39,238 nucleotides of DNA from Planctomyces sp. SH-PL62 (GTDB lineage Bacteria; Planctomycetota; Planctomycetia; Planctomycetales; Planctomycetaceae): assembly GCA_945905295.1 (NCBI GenBank), contig CAMDPX010000047.1, forward strand, positions 1-39,238. The letters are read 5' to 3'. Below, piece by piece: positions 360-32,352 of the stretch (position 1 is the stretch's first letter; each line of letters starts with the position of its first letter). A program made the translations under genes and the position numbers. The notes beneath the pieces were generated by a model that searched no databases, was not told where the DNA came from, and was given only the letters and a program-made list of their open reading frames with translations.

Positions 360-425
360 GTAGCCGAACTCGTGAGAGTTCGGACGGTCGGTGATCCGAT
401 CCCGAATTCTCACGAATTCGGCTAC
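360..425. repeat. REP/BIME-like inverted pair of GTAG hairpins
   Basis: The forward unit at 360-383 reads GTAG, stem CCGAACTC, loop GTGA, stem GAGTTCGG. The reverse unit at 402-425, read on the minus strand, is GTAG, stem CCGAATTC, loop GTGA, stem GAATTCGG. The two units differ by a compensatory C-G to T-A change in the stem. An 18-nt spacer separates them. The pair ends 14 nt downstream of the stop of the minus-strand gene at 440, so it could also stop transcription. Confidence 0.8.
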
Positions 426-439
426 TCGCACCTGCTGTT

Positions 440-679
440 TTACGACTTCAGCACAGGCGTGGCAGGCCGTGAAGCCACCGCTTTGTCCGTGTCGGGTGGA
501 ATCGCATTGTTCGATTCGGATTGCTGATCATCTTCGGCATAGGAAACGATCTGGCGACCGCTGCGCTTCTCTTGTTCTTTCAAATCGCGAAAGATGGCCT
601 GCAAATCGTAGTTAAAGCGGGCCGCGTAGGCATCGCGGGCGCGCCGGACTTCATCGACGATCGGGTCTGACCAAGTCAT
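440..679 (-). CDS. Small partner protein of PIN-domain toxin (putative antitoxin)
   Basis: This 79-residue protein starts MTWSDPIVDEV and has a charged helical first half with a FNYDLQAIFRDLK segment. The second half is polar and looks disordered. Its ATG overlaps the stop of the upstream PIN gene as ATGA (679-676), so the two are probably translationally coupled. Small proteins with this N-terminus occur beside PIN proteins in cyanobacteria and planctomycetes (recalled knowledge, not searched). The start is chosen from the ATGA overlap; a frame 11 codons longer upstream lies inside the PIN gene. An antitoxin role is inferred from position alone. There is no recognisable DNA-binding fold such as AbrB or RHH. 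Confidence 0.6.
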   Translation of the reverse strand: MTWSDPIVDEVRRARDAYAARFNYDLQAIFRDLKEQEKRSGRQIVSYAEDDQQSESNNAIPPDTDKAVASRPATPVLKS

Positions 680-1154
680 GGCTTCACCTCCATCATTTCT
701 TCCGGGGTGCAAATAATCGGTGCCTTGAATCCTCTGCTGGCGCAGACCTCCTCGATCTTAGCCCGCATGGTGGCGTTTGCCATGTGCCGGCAATTCCACG
801 TCAGCAGATACGGGACACGGTGAATCGCCGCAATCGCGATGTGCAGCGCGTCATTCTCCGCTTTCGTCGGCAAGGCTCCGACTTTGACAAGTTCTTCTGC
901 CAGCATTAACGCCGATTCGGTGATCTCCAGCATGGTCATCGACGCGAGTTCGGCGAGGCGTTCTTGTGCGGCCTGCGGATCTCCGTCTCCCGCTTCCTGA
1001 AGCACCAGTTGGGAAACACAGAGTTCATAACTCGCGCGCTGCCCGTCCCACCAATCGTGTGTGGATTGTTGATGCCGGCAACAATCACGTCACGGCTGGG
1101 CCGAGCGGTCAAGTAACTGACGAACGTGGTTTCGATATAGGCTCGCGTATTCAT
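676..1154 (-). pseudogene. VapC-like PIN-domain toxin, frameshifted
   Basis: PIN proteins are small Mg-dependent RNases and the toxin half of many type II toxin-antitoxin modules. The N-terminus (MNTRAYIETTFVSYL, from 1154) lies in one frame. From about 1074-1076 the family-like sequence (HQQSTHDWWDGQ, YELCVSQLVLQEA) continues in a second frame to 676, with conserved segments ENDALHIAIAA and LLTWNCRHMAN typical of the second acidic cluster and the C-terminal PIN region. One nucleotide appears to be missing in the GCCGGCATC stretch. As read, only fragments would be made: about 75 residues ending in unrelated sequence, or a 109-residue C-terminal piece starting at 1005. The cause may be true decay, a phase change or a sequencing error. 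The gene overlaps its downstream partner by ATGA. Confidence 0.7.
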
Positions 1155-1198
1155 GGCCATTCATGTTCGTGTTGAGAATGCGACGACTACATCGTTCG

Positions 1199-1270
1199 AT
1201 GAATCAACCTCTCATTCCGGCTGTGGTTTGTCAATCGGCTGGAAGGCCCCGCTTGCGGCCTGGCAGAACG
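1199..1270. repeat. Dispersed intergenic repeat, copy B (short)
   Basis: This copy matches copies A and C only over their right half, from GATGAATCAACCTCTCATTC through GGAAGGCCCCGCTTGCGGCC to TGGCAGAACG. It lies just downstream of the Phd-like gene (1277, minus) and upstream of the PIN gene. Confidence 0.8.
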
Positions 1271-1276
1271 GGGGAA

Positions 1277-1564
1277 TCATTCGATGCCGAGTTGTTTTTT
1301 GACGTCCGCCAGCGGGATGCCCTTGCCTCTGATACCCTTTCGACGGGCCGCCAGAGACTTCATCAGCTTCTTGTTGCTTCCCGTTCGTTCGACTTCGTCT
1401 GCAAAATCGTTGCTCATTCCCACGTCGAAGCCTTCCCTGTTGTTGACGGCAGTCAGCGCGAATCGTTGTCCGTCCGCCGATTCCAAAACAACGACCCCTT
1501 GTCGAGCCTTTTTCAGTAGCTCGTTGAGAGATGCTGCTCGTGCCGAGACGGCGATTGTTTTCAT
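1277..1564 (-). CDS. Phd/YefM-like antitoxin homologue
   Basis: This 95-residue protein begins MKTIAVSARAASLNELLKKA, followed by GVVVLESADGQRFALTAVNN. This is the order seen in Phd/YefM antitoxin N-terminal domains: a short strand, a helix, then a beta hairpin ending in an 'LTAV' strand. The C-terminal half is basic (KKLMKSLAARRKG) and ends in a short helix. No toxin-like gene is adjacent: the next gene upstream on the same strand is the retropepsin-like protein 55 bp away, and downstream is repeat copy B. It is therefore an orphan antitoxin or part of a small accessory operon. An SD-like GAGG sits about 6 nt before the ATG. Confidence 0.6.
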   Translation of the reverse strand: MKTIAVSARAASLNELLKKARQGVVVLESADGQRFALTAVNNREGFDVGMSNDFADEVERTGSNKKLMKSLAARRKGIRGKGIPLADVKKQLGIE

Positions 1565-1619
1565 AGTTGCCTCTTCGCTCTGCGAATAAAAAGGAGATTG
1601 CTGACCTTGGTCATCTGCA

Positions 1620-2003
1620 TCAACTCAGCCACAAGCGGCCTTGGCGGAAGTCGATCTCAAGCTTGTGACCGCGCAGGAAGTCCAGCCCCAAGAGGCCATC
1701 AATCCCCGCAGTTGGCGGGAGCGTATGGGCGAGGACGGGCAATTCAACTCGTTCTTGGCCCAAGCCAACGACGCGCTGCAGTTTCACCAGCGGCGCAAAC
1801 TCGACCCCGCTGCCGGTCGTGACTTTGACCTTCTCGGCATCGTGATTGAGGGCACAACCAACGACGATCAAATGCTCAGAGTTGATCATGGTGCGAGTCG
1901 CCCCGGTATCGAGCGCCAGTCGCAGGACAGCGCTTCCCTGCGAACCGAATATCTCCACCGAGACGAAAATCAGGCCGTGGCTCGCTCGAAACGAGTCGGT
2001 CAC
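1620..2003 (-). CDS. Retropepsin-like aspartic protease
   Basis: This 127-residue protein carries the aspartyl protease signature LALDTGATRTMI (DTGA at residues 32-35) and a C-terminal flap/second-strand segment GIDGLLGLDFLRGHKLEIDF. This is the layout of single-domain bacterial retropepsin-like proteins, which would work as dimers with one Asp from each chain. No signal peptide or membrane segment is seen, so it is probably cytoplasmic. The start is GTG at 2003, overlapping the stop of the upstream gene (GTGA), which indicates coupled translation. The substrate is unknown; the obvious candidate is the small upstream partner. Fold assignment is fairly safe, biological role unknown. Confidence 0.75.
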   Translation of the reverse strand: MTDSFRASHGLIFVSVEIFGSQGSAVLRLALDTGATRTMINSEHLIVVGCALNHDAEKVKVTTGSGVEFAPLVKLQRVVGLGQERVELPVLAHTLPPTAGIDGLLGLDFLRGHKLEIDFRQGRLWLS

Positions 2004-2227
2004 AGCACCACCGCCGTGTTCTCGGGCATTTCGCCGGTGAAGAGCGTCGCATACCGAGCCGGTTTGACGGCGAGGAGATGACGATAGACTTCATCTCGAT
2101 CCTTGCTGTGGCAAATCACTTTGCCACTGAGGACTTGAAGGTGCTCGTCAGTCTCTGGGTCGGCGATGAGTACCCATTCGTCATCGAATTGAGATTCCAT
2201 TTCTTGGACCGTCATCTCCTGTTCCAT
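2000..2227 (-). CDS. Small acidic protein coupled to retropepsin
   Basis: This 75-residue acidic protein starts MEQEMTVQEMESQF, then contains DEWVLIADPETDEHLQVLSGKV, SKDRDEVYRHLLAVKP and ends FTGEMPENTAVVL. The ATG at 2227 is preferred over a longer frame to 2287 because it follows a GAGG motif and because homologues, as I remember them, begin at this point. The stop overlaps the GTG of the protease gene. I recognise the combination 'small acidic protein plus retropepsin' as recurring in cyanobacteria and planctomycetes, but know no assigned function. It could be a protease substrate, inhibitor or adaptor (inference). Confidence 0.65.
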   Translation of the reverse strand: MEQEMTVQEMESQFDDEWVLIADPETDEHLQVLSGKVICHSKDRDEVYRHLLAVKPARYATLFTGEMPENTAVVL

Positions 2228-2294
2228 GATCTTGGACCTCGTGAAGTAGGGCGCTGGATTTGATGAGGAGTCACGTCCCGCGGCCAACAGTTAA

Positions 2295-2420
2295 GTTAGC
2301 CGCGCGCGAGCGATCACGGACCGACTGAAATGGGTTCACCGCTCGCTTGGTGAATCAACGTCTCATTCCGGCGGTGGTTTGTCAATCGGCTGGAAGGCCC
2401 CGCTTGCGGCTTGGTAGAAG
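2295..2420. repeat. Dispersed intergenic repeat, copy C
   Basis: This is the full-length counterpart of copy A, collinear from GTTAGC through GATCACGG, TGAAATGGGTTCACCGCTCG and TCAATCGGCTGGAAGGCCCC. It lies between the retropepsin pair and the end of the cytochrome/DUF1592 gene. Confidence 0.8.
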
Positions 2421-2462
2421 GATGGAGAGAGAACTCAAAAAGAGTCTTCATTGTTCTGCCAA
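2411..2462. repeat. Imperfect inverted repeat of the TGGCAGAA type
   Basis: The left arm TTGGTAGAAGGATGGAGA and the right arm TCTTCATTGTTCTGCCAA are imperfect reverse complements. The element abuts the stop codon of the minus-strand gene ending at 2464 and could serve as its transcription terminator. Confidence 0.65.
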
Positions 2463-2463
2463 C

Positions 2464-4989
2464 TTACTTGTTCTGAAATAGCTCACTCTGCACCACTTCA
2501 TGCAGGAGCGATCGGAAGCCGTAGTTCTTGTCCCGCACGCGGGCGACGATGGCTTCGATCTCCGGAAGATCGGCTTTGGTCGGTGCTCCGCCGGTGGCGT
2601 AGGTCAGCACCTTTGTGGCGAGCGATCGGGCAAGCTGGTCCTTATCTCGCAGCAGCAAATGGCGGAACTCGTCGATGTTCTGGAACGGCTGGCCATCTTC
2701 GGTCACGCTGGAGGGATCAACTCGCGGGCCGCGGTAGTAATTCATCTTGCGACCGTCCAAGACCACCTCTTCCGCATCTCGTCGCCAGCCGGAGATCCGA
2801 TACTTCTCACGCCAGCCGCCGATGCAATCGAAACTCTCGAGCGCGAAACCTGGCGGGTCGATCTTCGTGTGACAACTGGCGCAGGCGGGGTCGGTGCGGT
2901 GCTTGGCCAGTTGCTCGCGGATCGTCGTCGCGCCGCGAATGTCCGGATCGATCGCCGCGACCCCTTCGGGTGGCGGGGGCGGAGGCGTACCCAAGATGCG
3001 ATCGAGCACCCACGCTCCGCGCATGACCGGCGAGGTCGACGTGCCGTTGGCCGTGACCTTCATGACGCTGGCCATTGTGATGACTCCGCCACGATGACTG
3101 TCTGGCGGCAGCGGCGTCTTGTGAAACTCCCAGCCGGTCAGGCCGGGGATGCCGTAATGCTTTCCGAGTCGGCCGTTGAGCATCGTGAAGTCGGAGGCCA
3201 CGAATTTGGTCAGGGGTAAGTCCTGCTTGAGGACTTCGTCGAAGAAGAGTTCGGTCTCGCGGATCATCGACACTTTCAGCAGGTGATCGAATTCGGGGTA
3301 CACGAGGTGGCTCGGTTCGGTCGCGTCGATTTCGCGCAGGCCCAGCCATTGGCCGACGAAGTGTTCGGTGAATTGTTGGGCTTTGGGGTGTGCGAGCATT
3401 CGTTCGACTTGCCGATGAATTGGCGAGCCGGAGGGCGTTAGCCCCCGGACTGCGGTTTCGTTGGTAGTTCGAGCCGGCGGATTTGTCCGGGGGCTAACGC
3501 CCTCCGGCTCGCCTGATCCGGTCAGTCTTCCCTTCTCGGCGAGTTCAAAGAGTTCGTCGTCCGGCATCGTGCTCCAGAGGAAATACGAAAGCCGATTGGC
3601 CAACGCGAAATCATCGAGCTTGCCCGGTTGCTCGCGGAGGAACAGGAACTCGGGCGAGATCAACACCCCTTTCAGAGCGGCTCGCATTGCCAACTCGAAC
3701 GTGTAGCCGCCATCCAGCTTGGCCTGCACAATGGCCACGAACGGTGCGACGTCATCAGCGATCACGTTCCGGCGAAACGCTCGGCGCGTGAACTTCGTCA
3801 GGATGCGTGCGGCATCGACGATGGGTTGGTCCGAGACGACTTCCACGCGGTCGGAGAAGTTGTAAATCGGAAACTTCTTCTGCGGCATGTCGCCGAAGAT
3901 GCGGCGATGACTTTCGGGAGGCCAGGTCTCGTTGAGCGGGCCTTCGACTTCGACATACTGCACGGCGAGACCGGGGCCGTTCCAGTATTCGCCACCGGTT
4001 TGCTTCACGGTGTTCGCGCCGGCCAATCCATACGGCAGCATTCGGATCGTGGTGCGCGGTTCCATGTAGCGGACGAACTCGAACACAGTTGGCTTATCGG
4101 GCGGGGCGTCGAAGTAGCTGATCAAGCCGTGCGTCCCCGTCAGGCGCGTATCGCTGGTGGTCACTCGAAACGTGACCGGTTTGCCTTCCCCTTGAATGGT
4201 GGATGCGGAAATGCGGAAGCGATAGTTGCCGGCATCCGGTGGATAGAACGTTGAGATGCTGGCGTTGTGCCATTCGGATGAGCAGAAGCAGACGACTTCG
4301 CCATCATCGAGGAAGCGATACACGTCCTCGGTGGTTCCTCGAACCGGGTGCCCGTCTTTGAGACTGTACCGCTTGTCAATCCGCAGCGGCGGCTTGGGTC
4401 GGTTAGCGATGGCCATGTTCAAGGCGGTGTCGGCCGCTTCGAGATACTTCTCCATCAAGAAGGATGACGTGTGATGCGCCGCGCCGGCGTTATCAAAACC
4501 GTTGGCCGAGCCATCCGCAGGCAACTGCTCTTTCAAGCTGACTTTGATGCCCAGCAGATCGTTGATCGTGTTCTCGTACTCGGTCCGATTCAACCGGCGG
4601 AGGATCACTCGCCCCTGAGTCGCCCGCGCGGCGGCATCGGCATCGGCCACGCGCGGGGCCAACCAATCGATCAGCGTCTGGACTTCCTTTTCCGGCGGAC
4701 GCGGTTTCGTCTTGGGGGGCATCTCTCCCGCTCGGAGTCGCTCAACCACAGTGGTCCAATGCTTGCGAGCCGCCGCATCCGCAAAGTCCAGCTTTAGGTT
4801 GTCCAGCCGGAGATTCCCCTTGGGTTTGTCTCCGCGATGACACTCCACGCAATGCTGAGTCAGCAGCGGCCGGAATTGATCCTCGAATGTCTTCGGATCG
4901 TCCGCCTTGCCGGTGGTGAAAGACGCGGCGACGACCACCAGGCTCAGCAATGTCACACCAACGCCGACCCACTTGCGAGACTTGGCCAT
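2464..4989 (-). CDS. Secreted cytochrome-like DUF1587/1595/1592/1588/1585 protein
   Basis: This 841-residue planctomycete-specific multidomain protein begins with a signal peptide or N-terminal anchor (VGVTLLSLVVVAASFTTG). A PSCyt1-type haem motif CVECH is near residue 45. A DUF1587 segment (LRRLNRTEYENTINDLLG), a carbohydrate-binding-like middle, DUF1595 (FTRRAFRRN), DUF1592 (LANRLSYFLWSTMPDDELF), DUF1588 with a second haem motif CASCH, and C-terminal DUF1585 follow. It is probably periplasmic; the family's role is not established, and polymer degradation coupled to redox is often suggested. The start at 4989 (MAKSRKW) follows a GGAGAG motif; a 13-codon longer frame exists. Residues about 492-523 are encoded by an in-frame palindromic insertion (3422-3513). 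It is divergent from the PQQ gene at 5146. Confidence 0.9.
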   Translation of the reverse strand: MAKSRKWVGVGVTLLSLVVVAASFTTGKADDPKTFEDQFRPLLTQHCVECHRGDKPKGNLRLDNLKLDFADAAARKHWTTVVERLRAGEMPPKTKPRPPEKEVQTLIDWLAPRVADADAAARATQGRVILRRLNRTEYENTINDLLGIKVSLKEQLPADGSANGFDNAGAAHHTSSFLMEKYLEAADTALNMAIANRPKPPLRIDKRYSLKDGHPVRGTTEDVYRFLDDGEVVCFCSSEWHNASISTFYPPDAGNYRFRISASTIQGEGKPVTFRVTTSDTRLTGTHGLISYFDAPPDKPTVFEFVRYMEPRTTIRMLPYGLAGANTVKQTGGEYWNGPGLAVQYVEVEGPLNETWPPESHRRIFGDMPQKKFPIYNFSDRVEVVSDQPIVDAARILTKFTRRAFRRNVIADDVAPFVAIVQAKLDGGYTFELAMRAALKGVLISPEFLFLREQPGKLDDFALANRLSYFLWSTMPDDELFELAEKGRLTGSGEPEGVSPRTNPPARTTNETAVRGLTPSGSPIHRQVERMLAHPKAQQFTEHFVGQWLGLREIDATEPSHLVYPEFDHLLKVSMIRETELFFDEVLKQDLPLTKFVASDFTMLNGRLGKHYGIPGLTGWEFHKTPLPPDSHRGGVITMASVMKVTANGTSTSPVMRGAWVLDRILGTPPPPPPEGVAAIDPDIRGATTIREQLAKHRTDPACASCHTKIDPPGFALESFDCIGGWREKYRISGWRRDAEEVVLDGRKMNYYRGPRVDPSSVTEDGQPFQNIDEFRHLLLRDKDQLARSLATKVLTYATGGAPTKADLPEIEAIVARVRDKNYGFRSLLHEVVQSELFQNK
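3422..3513. repeat. Palindromic element inserted inside the cytochrome/DUF1592 gene
   Basis: Two perfect 29-nt reverse-complement arms (3422-3450 and 3485-3513) are separated by 34 nt. Within each arm, stem CCGGAGGGC, loop GTTA and stem GCCCCCGG fold as a smaller hairpin preceded by GCGAG. The same layout (GCGAG, GC-rich stem, loop GTCA) recurs at 32477-32552. It is read through in frame by the host gene. Confidence 0.85.
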
Positions 4990-5145
4990 AGCATCTCTCC
5001 GCCCCACGGACTTGTGATTCAGCACCAATCAACTTCCACTTGTCGGTTGATTGTCAGCTTTCGGATCGAGCACTACAAGCACCCTGAATTGAAGTCCGTC
5101 GCGGTCTCAACGGTTCCGTCCCAGAGTGATTCGGAGACACATCTC
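4990..5145. promoter_or_regulatory. Divergent intergenic region
   Basis: This 156-bp gap separates the divergent starts of the cytochrome/DUF1592 gene (4989, minus) and the PQQ gene (5146, plus). It must hold both promoters unless they are further inside the genes. I could not identify convincing -10/-35 boxes or operators. GGAGA ahead of 5146 and GGAGAG ahead of 4989 are plausible ribosome binding sites. Confidence 0.4.
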
Positions 5146-7791: not shown

Positions 7792-7819
7792 CCAACGCTG
7801 TGTCCCTAATTGTGAACGC

Positions 7820-7918
7820 GGGGTCGGGTCTACGATTTTTCGGATTTGGCCGGGTGAGACGTGGATTGCAAAAGAGGCGTTGCGCCGGCCAAATCCGAAA
7901 AATCGTAGACCCGACCCC
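7820..7918. repeat. Long perfect inverted repeat between convergent genes
   Basis: The 34-nt arms at 7820-7853 and 7885-7918 are perfect reverse complements with a 31-nt spacer. The outer ends read GGGGTCGGG/CCCGACCCC, like the element at 28911-28997. It lies between the convergent gene ends at 7791 and 8004 and could act as a bidirectional terminator, but arms of this length with a long spacer look more like a mobile palindrome. Confidence 0.85.
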
Positions 7919-8003
7919 TGACGCACTCGCTGCTTGGCCGCTCAATGAGACCTACGGTCGGGAGTGGGTGGCTCGGTCAGGAGACCGGCCACAACGCATT
8001 CAC

Positions 8004-10013: not shown

Positions 10014-10048
10014 GAGCGAACTCCTCGAATCTAATTCCTTTTCCCTGC

Positions 10049-10597
10049 TCAAAGAGATGTCACGGCATCAACCTTGTGACACGTACCACTCAACTCTGGC
10101 GTTTGCGTGATCGAAAACAAATGGACTTCTCGACCTTTGATACGACAGTGCGTTTCAGGTTTCATGCCGAGCTTCTCAACGACTCGAATGGACGCGCGAT
10201 TCGGCGACTGCACTGTGGCGATGATGCGTCGGAATCCGAGAGTCTCGAACCCATGTTTCAGAACTGCGCGAGCGGCTTCGGTTGCCAAGCCGCGCCCCCA
10301 ATACGGTTTCGCGAGTCTCCAGCCGATCTCAGCGCCGTCGTTTGACGGAATGAAGCCGCAGAATCCGATCAATGCCGAGTCGGACTTGAGGATCAGTGGC
10401 CATTGGCAGAAACCCAGCGTCTGCGACATCTCGCCAGCACGCGCGATGAATTGCTCGGTTCTTTCCAACGACCAGGGCTCGCCATCGCCGACGAACTTCA
10501 TCACGACAGGATCCGCGCAAATGGAATGAAACGGCTCCACGTCTGTGGCCATCCAGTCGCGGAAGAGCAGCCGATTTGTTTCGAGAGGGATCGTCAT
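10049..10597 (-). CDS. GNAT family N-acetyltransferase (RimJ/RimL type)
   Basis: This 182-residue protein has the RimJ/RimL-like layout. The N-terminal strand is ETNRLLFRDWMATDVEPF. PLILKSDSALIGFCGFI is the beta4 region. EIGWRLAKPYWGRGLATEAARAVLKHGFE is the acetyl-CoA pyrophosphate loop, with a (Q/R)xxGx(G/A)-like GRGLATEA. The C-terminal part is IIATVQSPNRASIRVVEKLGM, typical of motif B. It transfers acetyl from acetyl-CoA to an amine; the substrate cannot be told from sequence (ribosomal protein N-terminus, small amine or drug are possible). The ATG at 10597 is preferred over a TTG two codons upstream. It is cytoplasmic, with no signal peptide. Confidence 0.9.
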   Translation of the reverse strand: MTIPLETNRLLFRDWMATDVEPFHSICADPVVMKFVGDGEPWSLERTEQFIARAGEMSQTLGFCQWPLILKSDSALIGFCGFIPSNDGAEIGWRLAKPYWGRGLATEAARAVLKHGFETLGFRRIIATVQSPNRASIRVVEKLGMKPETHCRIKGREVHLFSITQTPELSGTCHKVDAVTSL

Positions 10598-10743: not shown

Positions 10744-10867
10744 CTGACAGAAAAATGGGGACAGAAAAAGTTGGGAATGAGTGTCGTCGTCGGAAGGATC
10801 GTAGCGCACCATCAGAAGCCGGCGATCGAAAGTGGTCCTAATCTTTCTGCCCCCATTTTTCTGTCAG
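10744..10867. repeat. Long-range inverted repeat, TGACAGAAAAATGGGG type
   Basis: The arm CTGACAGAAAAATGGGGACA (from 10744) is the reverse complement, with one mismatch over 24 nt, of the arm ending at 10867. The arms are about 76 nt apart. It is related in sequence to the TGGCAGAAC pairs at 267-352 and 2411-2462. Confidence 0.75.
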
Positions 10868-10929: not shown

Positions 10930-10953
10930 CCGCCCCGCAAGGGGGCGGGCTAC
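10930..10953 (-). repeat. Solitary REP-like hairpin with GTAG
   Basis: Read on the minus strand: GTAGC, stem CCGCCCC, loop CTTGC, stem GGGGCGG. Length and layout match single units of the paired GTAG elements. It lies 11 nt past the stop of the WD40 gene and may double as its terminator. Confidence 0.65.
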
Positions 10954-13483: not shown

Positions 13484-13548
13484 GTCGCTGAATTCGCCAG
13501 AATTCAGCCGTTTGTTTCGACTCTCTGAACTCTGGCGAGTTCAGCTAC
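13484..13548. repeat. REP/BIME-like inverted pair upstream of the WD40 gene
   Basis: The forward unit at 13484-13507 reads GTCG, stem CTGAATTC, loop GCCA, stem GAATTCAG. The reverse unit at 13525-13548, on the minus strand, reads GTAG, stem CTGAACTC, loop GCCA, stem GAGTTCAG. The T-A/C-G difference in the stem is compensated on both sides. It begins 18 nt before the start codon of the WD40 gene. Confidence 0.8.
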
Positions 13549-22037: not shown

Positions 22038-24134
22038 CTACTCGTCGGTGCGAAACGTGATCGCCGGGAGTCCCTCTTTGTTGAAGAGATTGACCAGCGG
22101 ATTCCAGGCCCAGCCGTAGCGGACATATTTCGGAAGCGGGACTTCGGGGGACGACACGACGATCGTGTCCCTTTCGATCACCGCATCGGCGAAGACGAAA
22201 TTCTTGTCGGTGCCGGCGATCACGAAGCCGGTTAGCTTTTCGTCACCCGGCTTGATCATCAGGCCGCCGTGGATGTGCTTGAAGTACAGCCGGATCTTGT
22301 CGTGTTTCGGCTGTTCGGTCTGCATCTCGATGAACTCCGGGCCGGAGTAAACGAGATCTTTCTCCCCATACACGAGATGCCGCGCGACGAGCGACAGGCG
22401 GCGGCCGACCTCTTGTTTGTTGCGAGGGTGAATGTCTTTCGGGTCGCCGATGTCGATCGTCATCGCGAGCCCGGTGTTCGGCACGCGACGGACGGTGCGC
22501 CATTGCGATTCGCGGATCTCCGCCCAGCCGGGTTCGACCGGCTTCGTTTGCAGAGCGTTGAGGTTCGCCAGCGAGACGATCAGAAACGGAAAGTCGCCGA
22601 CCTCGAAACGCTTGCGCCAGTCGGCGATCAAGGTCGGCAAGAGGCGGCGGTATTGCAGCCAGAAGGGACCGTTCGCTTCCCCCTGATACCACAACGCGCC
22701 TTTGATCGCGAATGGCGCTAGCGGCTCGATCATGCCGTTGGAAAGAGACGAGATCATTTTGTAGTGCGAGACCTGCGGCGTCGGAAACGGCGTCTTCAAG
22801 TCGGCGAGCGCGACGGCCGGCTTCGTCTTCCATGTTCCCGCCAACTTCACTCGACGATCCCCAGGATTGATCGCCGGCTGAAGCACCATGTTGGTCGGGG
22901 CCGAACAAAAACCGCCGGGGCCATTGAGCTTGTGATTCAGGACCGCCGCGACGAGCACATTCTTTCCCGGCCGCACATGCCGGCGATCGACCAAGTATCG
23001 GCGAACACCAGAAAGCTGCGTCGAGCCGATCAGCTCGCCGTTCCACCAGACAATGTCGACGTCATTGATCACCGACAACACGAGCGACAGATCCTCGCCC
23101 GCCCACGTTTCGGGAATGTCAATCTCGTGTCGGAACCAAACGAGTCCATCGAACTCTTTGAGCGGTTCCAGTCCCGCTTCTTCCCACGGCTTCGGAACGC
23201 TGATGTCGAGCCAATCGTCGGTCTTGAGTTGCAGATCGGAGATGTACCTTTTCTCGGCGCTGACGGGATCGACAGTCGCGGTCCATTTCTCCAGCTCGCG
23301 GAAGTAATCGAAGTTCGGACCACCGACGGCGATCAGCTTGTCGAGTTCCGCGAACCGCTCGGAGAAGTCGTAGGGCATCTCGCGACGCAGAGCCTCACCG
23401 CTGACCCACGCCTCAGCGGCCGTCGCGCCGGCCGACGAGTGGATGATCCCAATCGGAATCTTTTGCGTCGCGTGAATCTGGCGAGCAAAGAAATACCCAA
23501 CCGCCGTGAAGTTACGAGCGAACTCCGGAGTGCAGATCTCCCACTTCGCCGGAGGCGGCAACTTCATCGGCACGAGCGACGAGTAGAAGCTGACGGTGAA
23601 GGAGCGAATCTCCGGGACGTTCGCCTGCTTGACCTCTTCCTCGGCATTGTTTGCCAACCGAACGGGCCAGTTCATGTTCGATTGCCCGGTGCAGAGCCAC
23701 ACATCACCGAACAACACGTTGGTCAGCTTTGCCGATCGCCCGCCTCCCTCGACGACGATCTCGTGCGGACCACCGGCGGCGAACGGTCCGACCTTAGTCG
23801 TCCAGCGTCCATCGTTGCCGGCCACGGCGGGCTGCCCCGCCGGTTGTCCGTCGACCTGCACGGTGATCTTGTCACCCGGCTTAGCCCAACCCCAAATCGG
23901 CGCGACGATGTCTCGTTGCAGCACCATGTCGTTGGCGAACAGCGGATGCAGAAACGGCAACGGTGTGGGCTGCGTCGGCCACCACGGCTGCGGTCCCGTG
24001 GGTTGCGCGAGCAGTGCATCGGAATGCGACAGTGCCACGAGAAGCAATGCCGTAGCCACGTTCGCCAGAACGTGGGTGATGCGGCGAAAACCCCACGTTC
24101 TGGCGAACGTGGCTACAGATTCTTGGCCGATCAT
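22038..24134 (-). CDS. Sialate O-acetylesterase-like SGNH hydrolase
   Basis: This 698-residue SGNH/GDSL-type esterase (DUF303 type) has its nucleophile Ser in GQSNM at about residue 152, the oxyanion segment SSAGATAAEAW, GALWYQGEAN, and the Asp/His pair in DIGDPKDIHPRNK near the C-terminus. Between them is a jelly-roll insert (FRHEIDIPETWAGEDLSLVLSVINDVDIVWWNGELIG), the usual layout of this family. It removes O-acetyl groups from sialic acids or other acylated glycans in the periplasm. The ATG at 24134 overlaps the stop of the oxidoreductase gene as ATGA. The signal peptide (ANVATALLLVALSHSDALLAQ) follows a stretch encoded by a palindromic pair (24052-24116), so the present N-terminus is partly built from a repeat. 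Confidence 0.9.
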   Translation of the reverse strand: MIGQESVATFARTWGFRRITHVLANVATALLLVALSHSDALLAQPTGPQPWWPTQPTPLPFLHPLFANDMVLQRDIVAPIWGWAKPGDKITVQVDGQPAGQPAVAGNDGRWTTKVGPFAAGGPHEIVVEGGGRSAKLTNVLFGDVWLCTGQSNMNWPVRLANNAEEEVKQANVPEIRSFTVSFYSSLVPMKLPPPAKWEICTPEFARNFTAVGYFFARQIHATQKIPIGIIHSSAGATAAEAWVSGEALRREMPYDFSERFAELDKLIAVGGPNFDYFRELEKWTATVDPVSAEKRYISDLQLKTDDWLDISVPKPWEEAGLEPLKEFDGLVWFRHEIDIPETWAGEDLSLVLSVINDVDIVWWNGELIGSTQLSGVRRYLVDRRHVRPGKNVLVAAVLNHKLNGPGGFCSAPTNMVLQPAINPGDRRVKLAGTWKTKPAVALADLKTPFPTPQVSHYKMISSLSNGMIEPLAPFAIKGALWYQGEANGPFWLQYRRLLPTLIADWRKRFEVGDFPFLIVSLANLNALQTKPVEPGWAEIRESQWRTVRRVPNTGLAMTIDIGDPKDIHPRNKQEVGRRLSLVARHLVYGEKDLVYSGPEFIEMQTEQPKHDKIRLYFKHIHGGLMIKPGDEKLTGFVIAGTDKNFVFADAVIERDTIVVSSPEVPLPKYVRYGWAWNPLVNLFNKEGLPAITFRTDE
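24052..24116. repeat. REP/BIME-like inverted pair inside the esterase signal-peptide region
   Basis: Forward unit 24052-24075: GTAG, stem CCACGTTC, loop GCCA, stem GAACGTGG. The reverse unit 24093-24116 is identical on the minus strand. A 17-nt spacer separates them. It encodes residues about 7-28 of the esterase. Confidence 0.85.
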
Positions 24135-25276: not shown

Positions 25277-25309
25277 AGGAGGTCTCGACCGAGTTCGAAG
25301 TTTGCATCT

Positions 25310-25373
25310 GCGCTCGTAGTGACCCGATTCATCGGGTCGAGACAGACCCGATGAATCGGGTCACTACGAGCGC
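25310..25373. repeat. Perfect palindrome of the GTAGTGACCCGA type
   Basis: Two perfect 29-nt reverse-complement arms (25310-25338 and 25345-25373) flank a 6-nt spacer. Each arm contains GTAGT, stem GACCCGA, loop TTCA, stem TCGGGTC. It lies between the NHL gene (stop at 25393) and the oxidoreductase gene (start 25276), 20 bp past the former's stop, and may terminate or attenuate transcription. Confidence 0.85.
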
Positions 25374-25392
25374 GGCAGCGATCGTGCGAGCG

Positions 25393-26391: not shown

Positions 26392-26587
26392 CGTTTGGAT
26401 TCCTGGTTGTGAGTGAGTTGTTCCCCGGCCGTCATCAAGGTGTCAGATTCGCGATGAGTTCAACTCCACGAACCCTCGGCAGACAGCGACATCGCAAGTT
26501 GCATCACGAGCGGTCGCAGTATCCGGTTCCAAGTTCCGCATTTCAACCAGCGAGAGGAGCGTTGAACCGATCAGGGCTCCACCACGA

Positions 26588-28879
26588 CTACCCGAATCCC
26601 GATAACCGACGCAGAGACCATTCGAGAGCGAGTAAGCCCACGACGAGCAGCCACAACCAGGGACTGTCCCACATCGGTTGGCGAGTGATGACGGCATCGC
26701 CACGGGTCACGGGGATCTGCAACAACGAGGAGACCAGCGTTTGCGAATCGCGACAAACGATGCCGTCCGTGGCTTGGGCAATCCGTTCGAGCAACTCTGG
26801 TTGGGGACGTGGCTGAAGCAGTTCATGCAGGTCCGGCAGGATTTGGACTTTGGTGCTGGTGCGAGCGATCTCATGGCCTTGGTGAGAGGCGATGACTTCG
26901 ATCTCTCGCGAGGGAATCACCGTTGACGCGGCTCCCACGAGATCCGGCATGGACGCCAAGGCTTGCGAGTCCATCTGGCCGACATAGTCTTTGCCGGACG
27001 TTGCGGCGGTGAGCGGCATCGCAGGCAAGCGCACCGCGGTTGCCGAGGTGTCGGCCGTCTTCACGGTGGCCACGAGCTCGTAATCAATCGTCTCTTTGAG
27101 TTGCTCATCAAACGCCTGCGCGGTGAGGACGATCGGCTGCCCCGCGCGATAGATGACGCGATCCGTTTCGATCTGCAATCGCTTGTTGCCGGCCGTCGAG
27201 TTTTCAGACAGCCAGCGCACCACGTTTCGCCAGAAGCGACGGAAGTATCTGTTGTCCCCTTCGCCCCACTGCGATTCAAAGAAGCGGCCCCAGTCGGCGG
27301 TCGTGTCGGGCGCGAAGGCGAAGGTGCGCCCGCGTCCGTAAGTTTGGCTGGCGAAGATCGGCATGATCCCCGCCTGCGGAATCGGAGTCGCCGAGACTCC
27401 CAGCACGGTCGCCGCCGGCTTGAGACGCTGCATGAAATTCGTGCCGAGAAACATCGGCATCGCCGCTAACACGCGACGGTTCTGTTCGGGGTCTTCGACG
27501 ATTCGCCAGATGGGATGCGTCTGCGCGGCCTCGGGGATCTGCACTTTGAACTGGTGATACAGCCAACCTTGTCCAATGCGGCCCCCTTTCATGTCCACGG
27601 GGATGAGCTGGTCCCACACCGTTTGATCCCAGCCACCGGCCCCAAAACTGGTGATGCCTCCGACCATCATGAATCCGCCGCCGCGCTTTGCCACCAATTC
27701 GACGGTCCAATCCAGTTGCTCGCGAGTGAACGCGCCAATCGAGATGTCGCTACAGATGACGCAGTCGTATTGCAGCAGTTCTTCACGCGTCGCCGGAAAG
27801 CCGCGATAGGCGTCGTTCACGCGCTGTAACCGCGGTCGCTGCACGTATTGCTGATCCGCGACCAGCGACAGGCATTCGATCTCTTTGTCTTCCTGCAAGG
27901 CGTTGTGGACCCACTGATATTCATTGCCGCCGGTCCCTTCCATGTAGAGGACTTTGAGTTTTCTCGCCGCCTTGCAGAGCTGGAACGGGACACGGTTGTT
28001 TTGCTCGGTGACTTCGCCGGAGAGCGGCGGTGCTTCCAACACGAGTTCGCCGTATTCGGGATTGGCCTCCACGATCAACTCGAACGGTTGCGGCTTCTCG
28101 CTGAGCGTCACGGGCAGAGAGGCCAGCGGCGGCAACTGCGGCCGGTCGGCCACGCGCACCTGTAAGACGACACGCTCACCTTCAAAGCCAGTCCCACGAA
28201 GTACTCCCCGGATCGGCGCTTTCGTGCCAGCCGCGACGCGTGGCGGGACGACGAGTTCATCAATCGCCACGTCACCGCGAATCTGCGGGCTGCCGACCGG
28301 AAACACATGGATGGGGATCTTCAGACTGCGATACCCCTGCGCCACCTCGGCCAGTCGATCCGGGTCGTCCACGGCCCCATCCGAGAAAACGACGATCGCG
28401 CGCGGCAGTTCTCGCGAGAACCTCGACGGCAACTGTTCGAGCGCGTCACACAGTCGAGTCGCGTCCTCGTTCGGGCTGAGTTGTGAGAAATCAGCCGCAG
28501 ACGAAAGCTGCTGGCCGAATCGGAAGAGCTGCACGCGCGGACGATTGCCGTGCCGTTGCAACTGCGAGTCCACTTCTTGAATCGTCTGCTGCACGACCAG
28601 CGAGCGACTGAGCGGCTGCTCCAGCGCCATACTGCGCGACGAGTCCACCAGAAACATCACCTGCGGTGCCTGGTCGGGCAAACGATGCTCGCGACGCCGC
28701 ACCGGATTGAGCAGCACCAGCAGCAGTATCAACATCACAAGCAAACGGGGCGCGAACAGCGACCAACTGCGTAGCCGATCTGAGATTGCCATCCAGCGCG
28801 CGACGAAGATCAGCGCCACCATCCCGGCCGCCACCGCGACATACAGCCAACCGGAATAGGAACCCGACCACTCCAACAT
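26588..28879 (-). CDS. Membrane VWA / glutamine-amidotransferase-like protein
   Basis: This 763-residue protein has two N-terminal membrane segments (WLYVAVAAGMVALIFVA and LFAPRLLVMLILLLVLL). A VWA domain with a MIDAS-type DSSRS (79-83) follows. Then come beta-sandwich modules and a class I glutamine-amidotransferase-like fold (VLYMEGTGGNEYQW, DCVICSDISIGAFTREQLDWTVELVAKRGGGFMMVGG, with no nucleophile Cys in the expected elbow). The protein ends in a final membrane helix (SPWLWLLVVGLLALEWSLRRL). Such proteins occur in planctomycete MoxR/DUF58/BatA operons and are thought to be envelope assembly or chaperone modules. The ATG at 28879 has AGGGTGG upstream. It is the last gene of the operon. Confidence 0.85.
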   Translation of the reverse strand: MLEWSGSYSGWLYVAVAAGMVALIFVARWMAISDRLRSWSLFAPRLLVMLILLLVLLNPVRRREHRLPDQAPQVMFLVDSSRSMALEQPLSRSLVVQQTIQEVDSQLQRHGNRPRVQLFRFGQQLSSAADFSQLSPNEDATRLCDALEQLPSRFSRELPRAIVVFSDGAVDDPDRLAEVAQGYRSLKIPIHVFPVGSPQIRGDVAIDELVVPPRVAAGTKAPIRGVLRGTGFEGERVVLQVRVADRPQLPPLASLPVTLSEKPQPFELIVEANPEYGELVLEAPPLSGEVTEQNNRVPFQLCKAARKLKVLYMEGTGGNEYQWVHNALQEDKEIECLSLVADQQYVQRPRLQRVNDAYRGFPATREELLQYDCVICSDISIGAFTREQLDWTVELVAKRGGGFMMVGGITSFGAGGWDQTVWDQLIPVDMKGGRIGQGWLYHQFKVQIPEAAQTHPIWRIVEDPEQNRRVLAAMPMFLGTNFMQRLKPAATVLGVSATPIPQAGIMPIFASQTYGRGRTFAFAPDTTADWGRFFESQWGEGDNRYFRRFWRNVVRWLSENSTAGNKRLQIETDRVIYRAGQPIVLTAQAFDEQLKETIDYELVATVKTADTSATAVRLPAMPLTAATSGKDYVGQMDSQALASMPDLVGAASTVIPSREIEVIASHQGHEIARTSTKVQILPDLHELLQPRPQPELLERIAQATDGIVCRDSQTLVSSLLQIPVTRGDAVITRQPMWDSPWLWLLVVGLLALEWSLRRLSGFG

Positions 28880-28910
28880 CAATCCACCCTAACGATCCAG
28901 GCCACCTAAA

Positions 28911-28997
28911 GGGGTCGGGAGTCTTTTTCATGCCGCAGTTGAGAAAATCCCGATTGTTTGTCTCGTGTTGTGCGGCATGAAAAAGACTCCCGACCCC
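28911..28997. repeat. Perfect inverted repeat with GGGGTCGGG ends
   Basis: Perfect 27-nt arms (28911-28937 and 28971-28997) have a 33-nt spacer. The outer ends GGGGTCGGG/CCCGACCCC match those of 7820-7918, with different inner sequence (AGTCTTTTTCATGCCGCA). It fills the gap between the coiled-coil gene and the VWA gene. Confidence 0.85.
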
Positions 28998-29010
28998 GTC
29001 GCCTCAACAT

Positions 29011-30669
29011 TCACTGCCGCAAGTCGTCGGACAGGACTCGATAATACTCTTCAACCAGCTTCTTGTACGTCGGCGGCACGGGCTGGTCCGCGTCCATCAA
29101 TGCGGCGGCGAGAATCGCCTCCTGAATTTTCGCTTGCAGCGCCTTCGAGATTTCGCGGGCTCCGTTGAAGTCGCCTAACTCCATCCGAGGATAGAAGCCA
29201 TCGGGAGGAGGCTGGCCACCCTCCACGAAGGGAGTTGGCTGTGGCTTCACCTGTGATCCGGCTCGCGATTGGCGGAGCGCCTCGGCCAGTCGGCGATCAC
29301 CGTCGGCGAGAGCGTCCAACCGCTTTTCGAGGCCGCTCGCTTTTTGTTCCGCGGATGCTGACTTCTGGCCTTGCTCGTGAGCACGCTTCGCCTGTTCGAT
29401 CAGTTGTGCCAACTGCTCCTCCAGCGCGATCAATTCCTTGAGTTGCGGCTGCGCGTATTCGCTGCGTGCAGTCGTCAGCGAGCGACTCAAATCGTTCAAT
29501 CGTTCGCGAGCTTCCTTCACAGCGCGACCCGCAGGGCGATCGGCCTGGAGGTCATCGGCCGCTTGCTTCATTCCGGCCGCGATCTCGCGCGGCGGGTTCT
29601 CGGCCTGGACCTGATCGAGCTTTTGTTTGACCCCTCCGTTTTCTTTAGCGGCGTCTCGCTTCAGCGCGTCGAGCAAGTCGGCGAGCAACTCCGTTTGAGC
29701 GGCCAACGACTGTTCGTCGCGAGCGACGCTCGCTTTGTCGGTGGATGATGCGGGCGTCTTCGATTGCTCGGCGTCGCCCAGTTGCTTCTCGATCGACTCT
29801 TGCTTGCCGGCGAGTTGCTGCGCGAGCTTCTGAGCTTGCTCAAGTCGTTGTCCAAAATCACGAGCCCCCATGGCGGCGAGATGCGCGGAGAGTTGTTCCA
29901 ACTGATCGGCGGACCGGCGGCCTTCTTTGGCGGCCGATTCGCCCGCTTGTTTTCGCAACTCATCCAGCCCTTGCTGCATCGACTGAGCGGCTTGCTGAGC
30001 CTGCTCGCTCGCCGCTTTGCCGGCGGTGTCGAGCTTTTCGAGTTGCTTCTGAAGATCCGCCAGTTCGGCCTGCATCTTCTCCTGATCGGCAGCGACCTCC
30101 GCTTGCGACGGGCTTTCAGACTTCTCGGACTTCTGGCTTTGATTCGGCTGCGAGGGAGAAGAGCTGCTCGACTTGCTCGGGCTGCTGCACGATTGCTGGG
30201 CCTGCTCAGACCATTTCCGTTCGCGCTTGGCGAGATCGTCGAGCTTTGTTCGAGCGTCCGCGAGTTGTTGCTGTTGGTCCTTTTTCTTTTCAGGCATCCT
30301 CAGCTTCTGACGTTGCTCGCGGTCGAACTTGCGGCAGGCGGCCGCGGATTGGCTGCTCGATTGGCCCAGCATCTTCCGCATGTTCTGTCGGGCGCGGATC
30401 AGACTGGCGAGAGCCTGTTGCTCGGACGTGACGGCTTCGGGAAGTTCGGGCACATCGAGCGCCTGCAATGCCGACTGCATCTGTGCGACGGCATCCGTCA
30501 GACCGGGCAGCGCGGCACCGCGTGCGGCCAAGCCTTGCGCGAACTCGTTGGTCTTCTCGATGAGTTCGGATTGGTTCGTGTGGAGTTCTTTGGCGGTGGA
30601 CGAAGCGAGTGGTTGTTGTTCCTGAGCCGTAAATGTGTGATTGAGATTGTTTCTTTGCCGGACGATCAA
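29011..30669 (-). CDS. C-terminal coiled-coil part of a DUF4175-like protein
   Basis: This frame of about 552 residues is rich in Q, E, K and A. Long helical stretches (DELRKQAGESAAKEGRRSADQLEQLSAHLA, LNDLSRSLTTARSEYAQPQLKELIALEEQLAQLIEQAKRAHEQ) and a Ser-rich linker (SKSSSSSPSQPNQSQKSEKSES) are followed by EVA-type coiled coil. It ends in PPDGFYPRMELGDFNGAREISKALQAKIQEAILAAALMDADQPVPPTYKKLVEEYYRVLSDDL. It begins LIVRQRNNLNHTFT, which continues the upstream gene in the same frame after a single TGA at 30697-30699. In relatives (recalled) both parts form one protein. The TTG at 30669 is the formal start but sits directly against GGAGGAG, too close for an SD. It is either a separate product by reinitiation or half of a split gene. 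Confidence 0.6.
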   Translation of the reverse strand: MIVRQRNNLNHTFTAQEQQPLASSTAKELHTNQSELIEKTNEFAQGLAARGAALPGLTDAVAQMQSALQALDVPELPEAVTSEQQALASLIRARQNMRKMLGQSSSQSAAACRKFDREQRQKLRMPEKKKDQQQQLADARTKLDDLAKRERKWSEQAQQSCSSPSKSSSSSPSQPNQSQKSEKSESPSQAEVAADQEKMQAELADLQKQLEKLDTAGKAASEQAQQAAQSMQQGLDELRKQAGESAAKEGRRSADQLEQLSAHLAAMGARDFGQRLEQAQKLAQQLAGKQESIEKQLGDAEQSKTPASSTDKASVARDEQSLAAQTELLADLLDALKRDAAKENGGVKQKLDQVQAENPPREIAAGMKQAADDLQADRPAGRAVKEARERLNDLSRSLTTARSEYAQPQLKELIALEEQLAQLIEQAKRAHEQGQKSASAEQKASGLEKRLDALADGDRRLAEALRQSRAGSQVKPQPTPFVEGGQPPPDGFYPRMELGDFNGAREISKALQAKIQEAILAAALMDADQPVPPTYKKLVEEYYRVLSDDLRQ

Positions 30670-30696
30670 CTCCTCCAGAGTTGTAGCGCATCCGTT

Positions 30697-32352
30697 TCAG
30701 GTGCCGCCGGTATCGAGCAACTGAAAGGCGAGCTTGAACGGCCGGATGTCGATGAACCGCAGCGGTGTCGTCGTTCGCCTCGGCTGACCGAAGTAGTTGT
30801 CTTCCGCGAAGGCGTAATAGTTCACGGCGTCCTGATGACTGAGTTGATGCTGCTCCAGCAGCAATTCGGACGGCAGACGAAACAGTTCGGTCGAGCCATC
30901 GGCGTTTTGCTCCAGCAGAGTTTCCATCGGGCCGCCGCTGATCTGATACATGATCCCGACTTTGAAGAGGCCCAAGTCGTCATCGGCCTCGACGAGCAAC
31001 GGCACTTCGGTGGTCGGCGTGACGACGAGTTCTTCCGACGGTTCGATGAACTGCACCTTTGGCTTGCGATCCAATTGCACGCGGATGTTGAATCGAATCG
31101 GCTCCAGCGACATTCCATCCGCTGCCTGAGCCGAGAATGAATACGTGCCGTTCTTTCGCAGATCGTTCAACGTGCCGCGGACAAAGTGACCGTCGATGAT
31201 GAGGCGATGATTCTCTTCCGACGTAGCCGAACTCGTGAGAGTTCGGTCCGAAGTCTCACGACTTCGGCTACTCGGATCCTTGTCCAGTCGCACGAGCTTC
31301 GCCTCGCCAGCCGGACGATTGAGCTCCAGCGTGAGCTCGACGTTCGAGCCTTCCAGCACCTTCAAGTCGAGCGACTCAACCGTCTCTTCTTTCTTAGCGG
31401 TGTATTCGGGCGGAGTGATGCGGGCTTGCGACTTCTCCAACGTCAGTGGCTGCAACACGCGGATCGCACCGAGCGGCAATGCTCGCGGGCCGGCGACCAC
31501 TTCAAACTCGATGTCCTGACCGAGCTTCTCCAGCGTCGCATCGAGCCGCCCGAGCAGCAAATCAGAAGCGTCCTCTTCTTCGGCCGGAACGAGATCCATC
31601 GTCTGCCAGTTGTCTTGCGAGTCGGCCGGCCGATATCGCAACTGAGCCGACTCGATCGGTCGCCCCGTGACTTCTGCTTTCACCGTGACCGACTCACCCG
31701 AACGAACCGTCGTCGTCTGCGGCGAGTAAGTGACCGTCGTGTATTCGACCGGCAGCAGGAACGCCCGCGCGGCGGCGATGCGAAATTCCGGTGAAGCAAT
31801 CAATCCAAACAACCAAACGCACGCGACCGCTGCTGCCATCGTGATTGCTTTCATGAGCGGCCGGCTATCAACCGCACCGTCCCAATCGGCACGCTCCGCG
31901 ACTTGATGCGACTCCCGATGCAACGCCGCCACGAGCACCGGCGAAGCGGCCGCCGGATGCCGATTCGGCTGGTCGTAATCGAGCGTCGTCCGCAATCGTT
32001 GTCCGAGTTGTTCGAGTTGCGCCTCCGCATCGACCGCCGCCTGCGACAACGTGTAGCTGGCGATCCAGCGTTTCCAGCCCAGGAAGATCGCCGCTGACGA
32101 ACTCATCAAGAGACCGACGAACCACGCCGTGCGATAAGCAAGCTGGAGTTCCAGGAAGAAGTCCGCGACAGCGACGATGCTCAAGGCCAACGCGAATGCG
32201 GTCGCGAGACAGCAAGCTCCGACGAACTTGCGCTGGAGAATCGCCCGTTGCTGCATGTCGCGAATGCGAGCCTCCAACTCACGCTGAGCAACATCGGCCG
32301 GGACACTTTGTTTGGATTTCGAGGCAACGATCGGAGGCGATGTGAGCGACAT
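30697..32352 (-). CDS. DUF4175-like membrane protein, N-terminal part
   Basis: This 551-residue protein has two membrane helices near the N-terminus (KFVGACCLATAFALALSIVAVADFF and TAWFVGLLMSSSAAIFLGW) and a third near residue 175 (ITMAAAVACVWLFGLIAS). Beta-sandwich modules follow (YTTVTYSPQTTTVRSGESVTVKAEVTGRP, ITPPEYTAKKEETVESLDLKVLEGSNVELTLEL). It ends in YYAFAEDNYFGQPRRTTTPLRFIDIRPFKLAFQ, a segment usually leading straight into a coiled coil. An in-frame TGA at 30697-30699 ends it; the same frame continues into the next ORF. Residues about 361-377 come from a palindromic insertion (31223-31271). The ATG at 32352 has GAGGT 8 nt upstream. It lies in the MoxR operon. Confidence 0.75.
   Translation of the reverse strand: MSLTSPPIVASKSKQSVPADVAQRELEARIRDMQQRAILQRKFVGACCLATAFALALSIVAVADFFLELQLAYRTAWFVGLLMSSSAAIFLGWKRWIASYTLSQAAVDAEAQLEQLGQRLRTTLDYDQPNRHPAAASPVLVAALHRESHQVAERADWDGAVDSRPLMKAITMAAAVACVWLFGLIASPEFRIAAARAFLLPVEYTTVTYSPQTTTVRSGESVTVKAEVTGRPIESAQLRYRPADSQDNWQTMDLVPAEEEDASDLLLGRLDATLEKLGQDIEFEVVAGPRALPLGAIRVLQPLTLEKSQARITPPEYTAKKEETVESLDLKVLEGSNVELTLELNRPAGEAKLVRLDKDPSSRSRETSDRTLTSSATSEENHRLIIDGHFVRGTLNDLRKNGTYSFSAQAADGMSLEPIRFNIRVQLDRKPKVQFIEPSEELVVTPTTEVPLLVEADDDLGLFKVGIMYQISGGPMETLLEQNADGSTELFRLPSELLLEQHQLSHQDAVNYYAFAEDNYFGQPRRTTTPLRFIDIRPFKLAFQLLDTGGT
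31223..31271. repeat. REP/BIME-like inverted pair inside the DUF4175-like gene
   Basis: Forward unit 31223-31246: GTAG, stem CCGAACTC, loop GTGA, stem GAGTTCGG, identical to the unit at 360-383. Reverse unit 31248-31271 on the minus strand: GTAG, stem CCGAAGTC, loop GTGA, stem GACTTCGG. The stem pair is C-G in one and G-C in the other. The spacer is 1 nt. It is translated in frame as a Ser/Arg/Thr-rich stretch (SSRSRETSDRTLTSSATSEE). Confidence 0.85.

Follow-up and report, generated by a model that had tools for sequence, protein, structure and literature searches.

Dispersed GTAG-tagged hairpin dimers in a Planctomyces genome share their anatomy with hairpins at IS200-like subclass 1.2 Y1 genes

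Repetitive extragenic palindromic (REP) sequences occur widely as repeats in bacteria and are believed to be moved by the REP-associated tyrosine transposases (RAYTs). We analyzed a family of REP-like hairpins in a 39,238-nucleotide stretch of DNA from Planctomyces sp. SH-PL62 (here called the window), which makes up the entire contig C47 (CAMDPX010000047.1) of an 8.6-Mb draft genome split into 476 contigs and encodes proteins with planctomycete PSD and PSCyt domains. The unit of the family is 24 nt long and comprises a GTAG tag, an 8-nt stem strand, a 4-nt loop (GTGA or GCCA) and a second 8-nt stem strand; in a dimer, two units face each other with their tags on the outer ends. The window contains four such inverted pairs. 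Dimer 1 consists of GTAG-CCGAACTC-GTGA-GAGTTCGG on the forward strand (360 to 383) and GTAG-CCGAATTC-GTGA-GAATTCGG on the reverse strand (402 to 425), separated by an 18-nt spacer (384 to 401). In dimer 2, the forward arm GTCG-CTGAATTC-GCCA-GAATTCAG (13484 to 13507), with the sole GTCG tag among the four pairs, faces GTAG-CTGAACTC-GCCA-GAGTTCAG on the reverse strand (13525 to 13548) across 17 nt. The arms of dimer 3 are identical, GTAG-CCACGTTC-GCCA-GAACGTGG occurring on the forward strand at 24052 to 24075 and on the reverse strand at 24093 to 24116, again with a 17-nt spacer. Dimer 4 has the same forward arm as dimer 1, GTAG-CCGAACTC-GTGA-GAGTTCGG (31223 to 31246), and the reverse arm GTAG-CCGAAGTC-GTGA-GACTTCGG (31248 to 31271) after a single nucleotide; it lies in frame within an open reading frame (ORF) of 556 aa (30697 to 32367), where it is translated as SRSRETSDRTLTSSA. 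Coordinates, tags, stems, loops and spacers of all four pairs, including a single GTCG tag, were exactly as described by an earlier sequence-only reading of the window.

The four window pairs are far above chance. With up to three mismatches allowed, GTAGCCGAACTCGTGAGAGTTCGG was found at 86 places in the genome, compared with 0 for the reversed pattern. Two looser patterns, constrained at the tag, the loop and the closing TC/GA pairs alone, detected 427 units genome-wide for GTAGNNNNNNTC-GCCA-GA (1 for the reversed control) and 77 for GTAGNNNNNNTC-GTGA-GA (reversed control, 0). In a systematic sample of 1,570,200 bases (contigs C1 to C37), which is an unbiased census, GTAG preceded 126 of 408 perfect hairpins with 8-nt stem strands and a 4-nt loop (8/4/8), and the runner-up tag preceded 16. 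A second sample of the same genome, 2.0 Mb in 101 stretches, includes 20 stretches picked for copies, Y1 genes or such contigs, and dimer counts taken from it are not an unbiased census. Its perfect 8/4/8 GTAG hairpins were mostly of the kind with C as first stem base and A as last loop base (131), followed by those with G and C or T at these places (59) and others (7).

Two further elements that the sequence-only reading had attached to the family fall outside it. The stem of the supposed solitary unit at 10930 to 10953 pairs in a different register, and the 2.0-Mb sample contains just one other match to its 11-nt core. The GTAGTGACCC palindrome at 25310 to 25373, which has 29-bp arms, belongs to a different hairpin class whose stem starts with T; as a relative is placed elsewhere in the syntenic region of the congener G010, this palindrome may be mobile too. 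Other repeats in the window include members of two more palindromic families at 32477 to 32552 and 3422 to 3513, with cores of 24 and 26 nt that have 33 and 13 matches, respectively, in the 2.0-Mb sample (both strands, window copies included), and an imperfect inverted repeat at 10744 to 10867 that contains GGGGACAGAAAAA, with 7 matches for ATGGGGACAGAAAAA in that sample.

Covariation was assessed on 143 units selected by tag, closing pairs and loop only, a choice that is blind to the other six stem pairs. At these six free positions, 95 to 99% of the pairs were Watson-Crick, and 126 of the 143 units were perfect. Among the 37 distinct unit sequences, 95.3% of cells paired, compared with a shuffled mean of 75.2%, and both sides had changed in 63 cells, compared with a shuffled mean of 17.4; none of 500 shuffles attained either observed value. 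The number of stem pairs with a both-side change, five, was no higher than in the shuffles (4.8). The stem covariation is real, and the compensatory changes proposed from the window letters were thus borne out by covariation above shuffles among the distinct sequences. The accompanying idea that structure and not sequence is kept was half right: structure is kept, and so is sequence, namely the TC/GA pairs, the loop and the nearly invariant stem of each subfamily. In two subfamilies of 9 and 7 dimers with spacers of 14 to 19 nt, the arms were approximately 97% and 99% alike, and the spacers approximately 45% and 41%, compared with 31% for random 17-mers.

Unit pairs no more than 120 bp apart in the 2.0-Mb sample were arranged head to head with the tags outside in 123 of 127 cases. 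All 21 GTGA dimers were heterodimers, 13 of them combining CCGAACTC with CCGAAGTC. A C/G swap at position 6 of the stem is also seen in CTGAA[CG]TC-GCCA (14 dimers) and in GTCAG[CG]CT-TTCC (10 dimers); it preserves the hairpin of each arm and disrupts the long palindrome. Heterodimers are not a universal rule, as they account for 21 of 21 GTGA, 13 of 18 TTCC and only 32 of 48 GCCA dimers; the homodimers (16 of 48 GCCA and 5 of 18 TTCC dimers) include most CCACGTTC dimers. A preference for heterodimers was reported by Di Nocera et al., who call it without obvious explanation (PMC3733652). The elements end at the tag: immediately beyond it, the flanking sequences of the 21 GTGA dimers were dissimilar, with no position exceeding 0.51 bit. 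GCCA dimers also occur within a composite repeat elsewhere in the genome (e.g., L024:523-610 and L044:4707-4794), in which GTGAAAGAATTG and CAAAAAGTTCACA enclose a CTGAACTC/CTGAAGTC GCCA dimer. Fifteen near-identical copies of it were found in the 2.0-Mb sample and none in the window; they are nested in further palindromic arms, whose bases vary together as judged by eye.

Each of the four window sites was found to differ in one or more of the congeners examined. The dimer at 31223 provides the sole clean two-sided comparison: it is absent from the aligned orthologues in G002, G010 and G007, with both sides aligned. Within the aligned region, each of these orthologues is 45 nt shorter, and the dimer measures 49 nt, indicating that it came with small local changes. 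At the same site, G006 has an unrelated, longer linker, and the alignment with G005 breaks there. The site at 360 is not a clean insertion but a replacement, since G002 has other, unrelated sequence of about equal length in its place; relatives of the left flank in G001, G002, G006 and G010 also run on without the dimer. Next to the aligned gene at 13484, no such element is present in the stretch of G006 shown, and the dimer in G005 belongs to a different GCCA-type subfamily, with the gene-side flank alone aligned, so that this is not a two-sided empty site. Nor is 24052 a clean empty site, as that dimer lies within a block of about 1.67 kb (approximately 22465 to 24132) that is missing from G010. 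Altogether, the dimers appear to hop between sites, as far as sequence comparison can tell. A looser pattern detected 510 units in the own genome (reversed control, 2) and 30 to 360 in each of 11 congeners (reversed control, 0 to 11); outside the genus, at least 15 units were found in 8 of 47 genomes. A stricter 24-mer with up to two mismatches was present in 15 of 40 genomes, the own one included. The sequence-only reading had named few copies, missing covariation and identical orthologous sites as signs against its proposal, and none of the three was found.

In the REPINs that Bertels and Rainey are said to have described in 2011, the dispersed unit is reportedly an inverted REP doublet. The window dimers are such doublets, two inverted units being the basic unit of REPINs and bacterial interspersed mosaic elements (BIMEs); unlike REPINs, no cognate RAYT was found for them. 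The proposed REP/BIME-like nature of the inverted pairs therefore holds, in the form of a dispersed REPIN-like GTAG family with hundreds of head-to-head copies. The family has an unpaired GTAG at the foot of a stem-loop, high copy number, complementary stem changes and a mainly extragenic location. According to PMC3733652, GTAG REPs likewise have GTAG at the foot of a stem of mostly 6 to 9 bp, complementary stem variants, head-to-head dimers, heterodimers and intragenic copies; spacers of 1 to 2 bp are given there for O. terrae dimers, and GTAG REPs are recorded in Planctomycetes, R. baltica included. GTAG REP/REPIN families of Planctomycetes were thus already known, and the window family itself may be among those in Figure 1 of that paper. 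The difference lies in the enzyme, as the GTAG REPs are tied there to RAYTs, whereas the hairpin class of the window fits subclass 1.2 genes of the IS200-like kind, as argued below.

A search with the PF01797 profile identified 13 Y1 genes in the draft genome. One of them, L020, is a canonical RAYT (176 bits, compared with an NCBIfam REP_Tyr_transpos cut-off of 80) and is bracketed by its own long-loop repeat, GTAGGGTGGG...CCCACC. L021 reaches only 58 bits against the same cut-off and is termed RAYT-like, as is L017; L022, L228, L233, L235 and L239 were grouped as RAYT-like by similarity and not by NCBIfam score. GTAG-GTTGGGAC-TCC/TCT hairpins, whose family was matched 61 times in the sample, bracket L021 and L022, and GTAG families other than that of the window likewise bracket L233, L235, L228 and L239. 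Hairpins of the type GTCAG[CG]CT-TTCC bracket RAYT-like genes in G007 and G010 and have 39 perfect copies in the own sample. RAYT-like/REP systems therefore run in the genus, each with its own hairpin family. Among relatives, none of 50 Y1 loci (out of 67 Y1 hits in the draft genomes of seven relatives) was bracketed by the window family, including 7 at which the script detected no Y1 ORF, and neither was any of the 24 L020-like loci examined out of 27 hits, again in draft genomes. A Y1 gene flanked by the same hairpins, a check that the sequence-only reading had suggested, was thus not found among the own and relatives' loci examined; outside the own genome, exact family units were met at just one of the Y1 loci examined, L307 of G039.

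Two observations concern other Y1-related features. Long inverted repeats at 7820 to 7918 and 28911 to 28997 start with GGGGTCGGG, a 9-mer with 121 hits in the 2.0-Mb sample; relatives of the first flank a Y1 gene in contig C203 of G002 on both sides, resembling the 'TIRYT' type of PMC3733652, which is flanked by terminal inverted repeats. In the long Y1 protein L019 (own contig C288), the part behind the Y1 core weakly matches the DnaA C-terminal region (31 bits, cut-off 344), which recalls the DnaA-like C-terminal domains discussed in PMC6006769.

Among the own Y1 genes, L012 is IS200-like (88 bits, compared with an NCBIfam cut-off of 55), and GTAG-CC hairpins bracket its relatives L204, L282, L283 and L284 from other planctomycetes. 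We analyzed the best 80 of at least 585 loci from a scan of named genomes, nearly all metagenome-assembled, which belong to Planctomycetota, Verrucomicrobiota, Acidobacteriota and others. Loci were ranked by how closely they resemble L012, a gene with hairpins of its own; nine genes chosen for their hairpins made up the query alignment A1, and 4 of the 80 loci had been examined beforehand. The motif Y---Q--HH, the signature of subclass 1.2 TnpA-Y1 proteins (Quentin et al. 2018, PMC6006769), was present at 73 of the 80 loci, missing at 1 and not scored at 6; the assignment to subclass 1.2 is by this motif alone. Hairpins with an NTAG tag numbered 133 in the 47 kb within 300 bp of the genes, compared with 21 in the 213 kb beyond 1 kb, and four control tags gave 1 to 12 near and 6 to 14 far. 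Of the near NTAG hairpins, 109 had the tag directed outward and 24 inward. The outward tags were ATAG (45), GTAG (38), TTAG (22) and CTAG (4); the stem started with CC in 102 of these 109 hairpins, and the loop ended in A in at least 105, GTGA (8) and GCCA (3) among them. An outward NTAG hairpin stood on both sides of 35 loci and on at least one side of 59. A second set of 28 Planctomycetota loci had such hairpins on both sides at 13 and on either side at 16, with CC in 31 of 36; without the 5 loci that overlap the 80, the values were 11 of 23, 14 of 23 and 25 of 30.

These proteins share the motif and the IS200-like size with subclass 1.2 of PMC6006769. As described in the available part of that paper, the subclass generally lacks IS200 terminal structures, occurs mostly in Cyanobacteria and Bacteroidetes and is given no named association with REPs, unlike the loci analyzed here, which are often flanked by NTAG hairpins and lie in several other phyla. 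Among the literature matches listed, judged by titles, abstract openings and consulted passages and without subscription papers, figures and supplements, there was no report tying subclass 1.2 to REPs. The likeness to IS200/IS605 elements resides in the HUH-Y1 enzyme, the solved relatives identified by profile being transposases that include that of ISHp608 (best hit 2fyx); the difference is that the window elements are geneless and have paired hairpins.

With the same detector used at both kinds of locus, the first stem base of GTAG hairpins was C in 38 of 39 cases at subclass 1.2 loci, where the loop ended in A in 37 of 39, and G in 29 of 31 at RAYT-like loci, a set of already examined loci for which the base after the tag was no criterion and in which the share of flanked genes (17 of 31) should not be read as an estimate. 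The perfect 8/4/8 GTAG hairpins of the own sample, described above, divide into these two classes, apart from the 7 others. The units of the window match the subclass 1.2 anatomy in their TAG-ended tag, an 8-nt stem that starts with CC or CT and a 4-nt loop ending in A, and are accordingly of the subclass 1.2 hairpin kind (first stem base C, loop ending in A). The closest case is L307, a subclass 1.2 gene of G039, which has GTAG-CCC[CT]GGTC-GTGA units 66 and 125 bp from one side; these agree with the window family in tag, loop and closing bases. A hairpin on the left side has a GAAG tag, as judged by eye. The most probable reading is that the window pairs are mobile, non-autonomous dimers of REP/REPIN-type hairpins, handled by an IS200-like subclass 1.2 Y1 enzyme (Y---Q--HH) and not by a canonical RAYT.

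Mobilization by a RAYT, the proposal of the sequence-only reading, was not supported for this family. No RAYT bracketed by the family was found among the loci examined in draft genomes, and the close GTAG flanks of RAYT-like genes are other families with a different anatomy. It is nevertheless conceivable, if unlikely, that a canonical class-2 RAYT of the genus moves the dimers, in trans or from an unassembled stretch. Such an enzyme does exist in the genome, as L020 with its own flanking repeat; other GTAG families with the identical tag bracket RAYT-like genes of the genus, and window-family dimers lie approximately 0.9 kb from the RAYT-like L021 and L017. However, the hairpins of RAYT-like genes are of other families and start with G in 29 of 31 cases, and L020 was rejected as the mover, being flanked by a different repeat and distributed independently of the family: an L020-like RAYT was found at E 1e-30 in only 5 of 12 genus genomes, whereas the family is present in 12 of 12.

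Several results weigh against the assignment to subclass 1.2. As linkage between gene and family was not found, the enzyme is assigned by hairpin anatomy, and a resemblance in shape is no proof of recognition. GTGA or GCCA units of the family do not bracket any of the 13 Y1 genes found in the own draft genome; at these loci they occur on one side only, as a CCGCGTTC-GCCA unit upstream of L012 and as the dimers near L017 and L021. No subclass 1.2 gene bracketed by exact CCGAAnTC-GTGA or C[CT]NNNNTC-GCCA hairpins was found, the own L011 to L014 included. The subclass 1.2 genes of the genus have hairpins with other stems and loops and with GTAG, ATAG, TTAG or other tags, or none that were found; matching hairpins stand on only one side of L012, and the CCGTGGGT-TTCA hairpins beside it were rejected as a dispersed family, with 0 exact copies in the 2.0-Mb sample. 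In relatives, a GTAG hairpin was located within 400 bp of only 14 of 73 IS200-like loci, repeats of one gene included and with the tags directed inward at L319, and 45 of the 80 loci described above have no outward NTAG hairpin on one or both sides. Four of the 12 genus genomes contain the family (30 to 82 units) with no subclass 1.2 hit at E 1e-15. Across 59 genomes, co-occurrence was weak, the gene being present in 13 of 20 rich and 12 of 39 poor genomes (Fisher p 0.025, with a cut-off of 15 units picked afterwards), and it was not significant in the taxonomic family outside the genus (p 0.18).

The dimers might also be immobile structured elements with a cellular role, such as marking transcription ends, stabilizing mRNA or binding proteins, and spread by recombination only, which we consider improbable. 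The contrast between arms and spacers within subfamilies suggests constraint on the arms, and units are extragenic above chance: 29 of 100 GCCA and 20 of 43 GTGA units fall inside gene calls, many being intragenic all the same, compared with 85% of random 24-mers, by calls that are crude (one ORF overlaps the Gfo/Idh-like ORF at 24131). Nevertheless, orthologous sites differ between congeners, one dimer lies inside a reading frame, and Rfam at gathering thresholds gave no match in the window. The units are also not concentrated between convergent genes, where 14 of 100 GCCA and 6 of 43 GTGA units lie (random 24-mers, 1.7%), with 33 and 9 between codirectional ones. An ordinary miniature inverted-repeat transposable element, bounded by terminal inverted repeats and mobilized by a DDE transposase, would account for the inverted repeats, the lack of own coding capacity and the high copy number but is very improbable, as the element ends are themselves hairpins with a single-strand, guide-like tag, the arms covary internally, and no shared target duplication was apparent by eye in the 87 flank listings.

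In the favored reading, that of mobile dimers handled by a subclass 1.2 enzyme, the spreading unit would be the dimer of GTAG-hairpin, spacer and inverted hairpin-CTAC, each arm of which could fold by itself on single-stranded DNA. The GTAG at the hairpin foot may guide a Y1 HUH nuclease into position, and this enzyme would cut and rejoin single-stranded DNA, probably at replication forks; the product of the subclass 1.2 gene would act on the dimers in trans. According to PMC8266576, GTAG takes part in the choice of the cleavage site by a TnpA-REP in vitro.

What would be new is that this hairpin class appears to go with subclass 1.2 genes, which are often flanked by REP-like hairpins in several phyla. 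We see an even chance that subclass 1.2 Y1 proteins are the enzymes of a second REP system parallel to RAYT/REP, with [AGT]TAG-CC.../NNNA hairpins often bracketing their genes in Planctomycetota, Verrucomicrobiota, Acidobacteriota and others, that this system has yielded hundreds of planctomycete dimers, and that a simple code (first stem base C with a loop ending in A, as opposed to first stem base G) separates both systems within one genome. If true, insertion sequences would have become domesticated REP systems more than once, or a living intermediate remains, and the hairpin code would allow a repeat to be assigned directly to its enzyme. A candidate substrate would thereby be at hand for subclass 1.2 proteins, which are given no role in the available text of PMC6006769.

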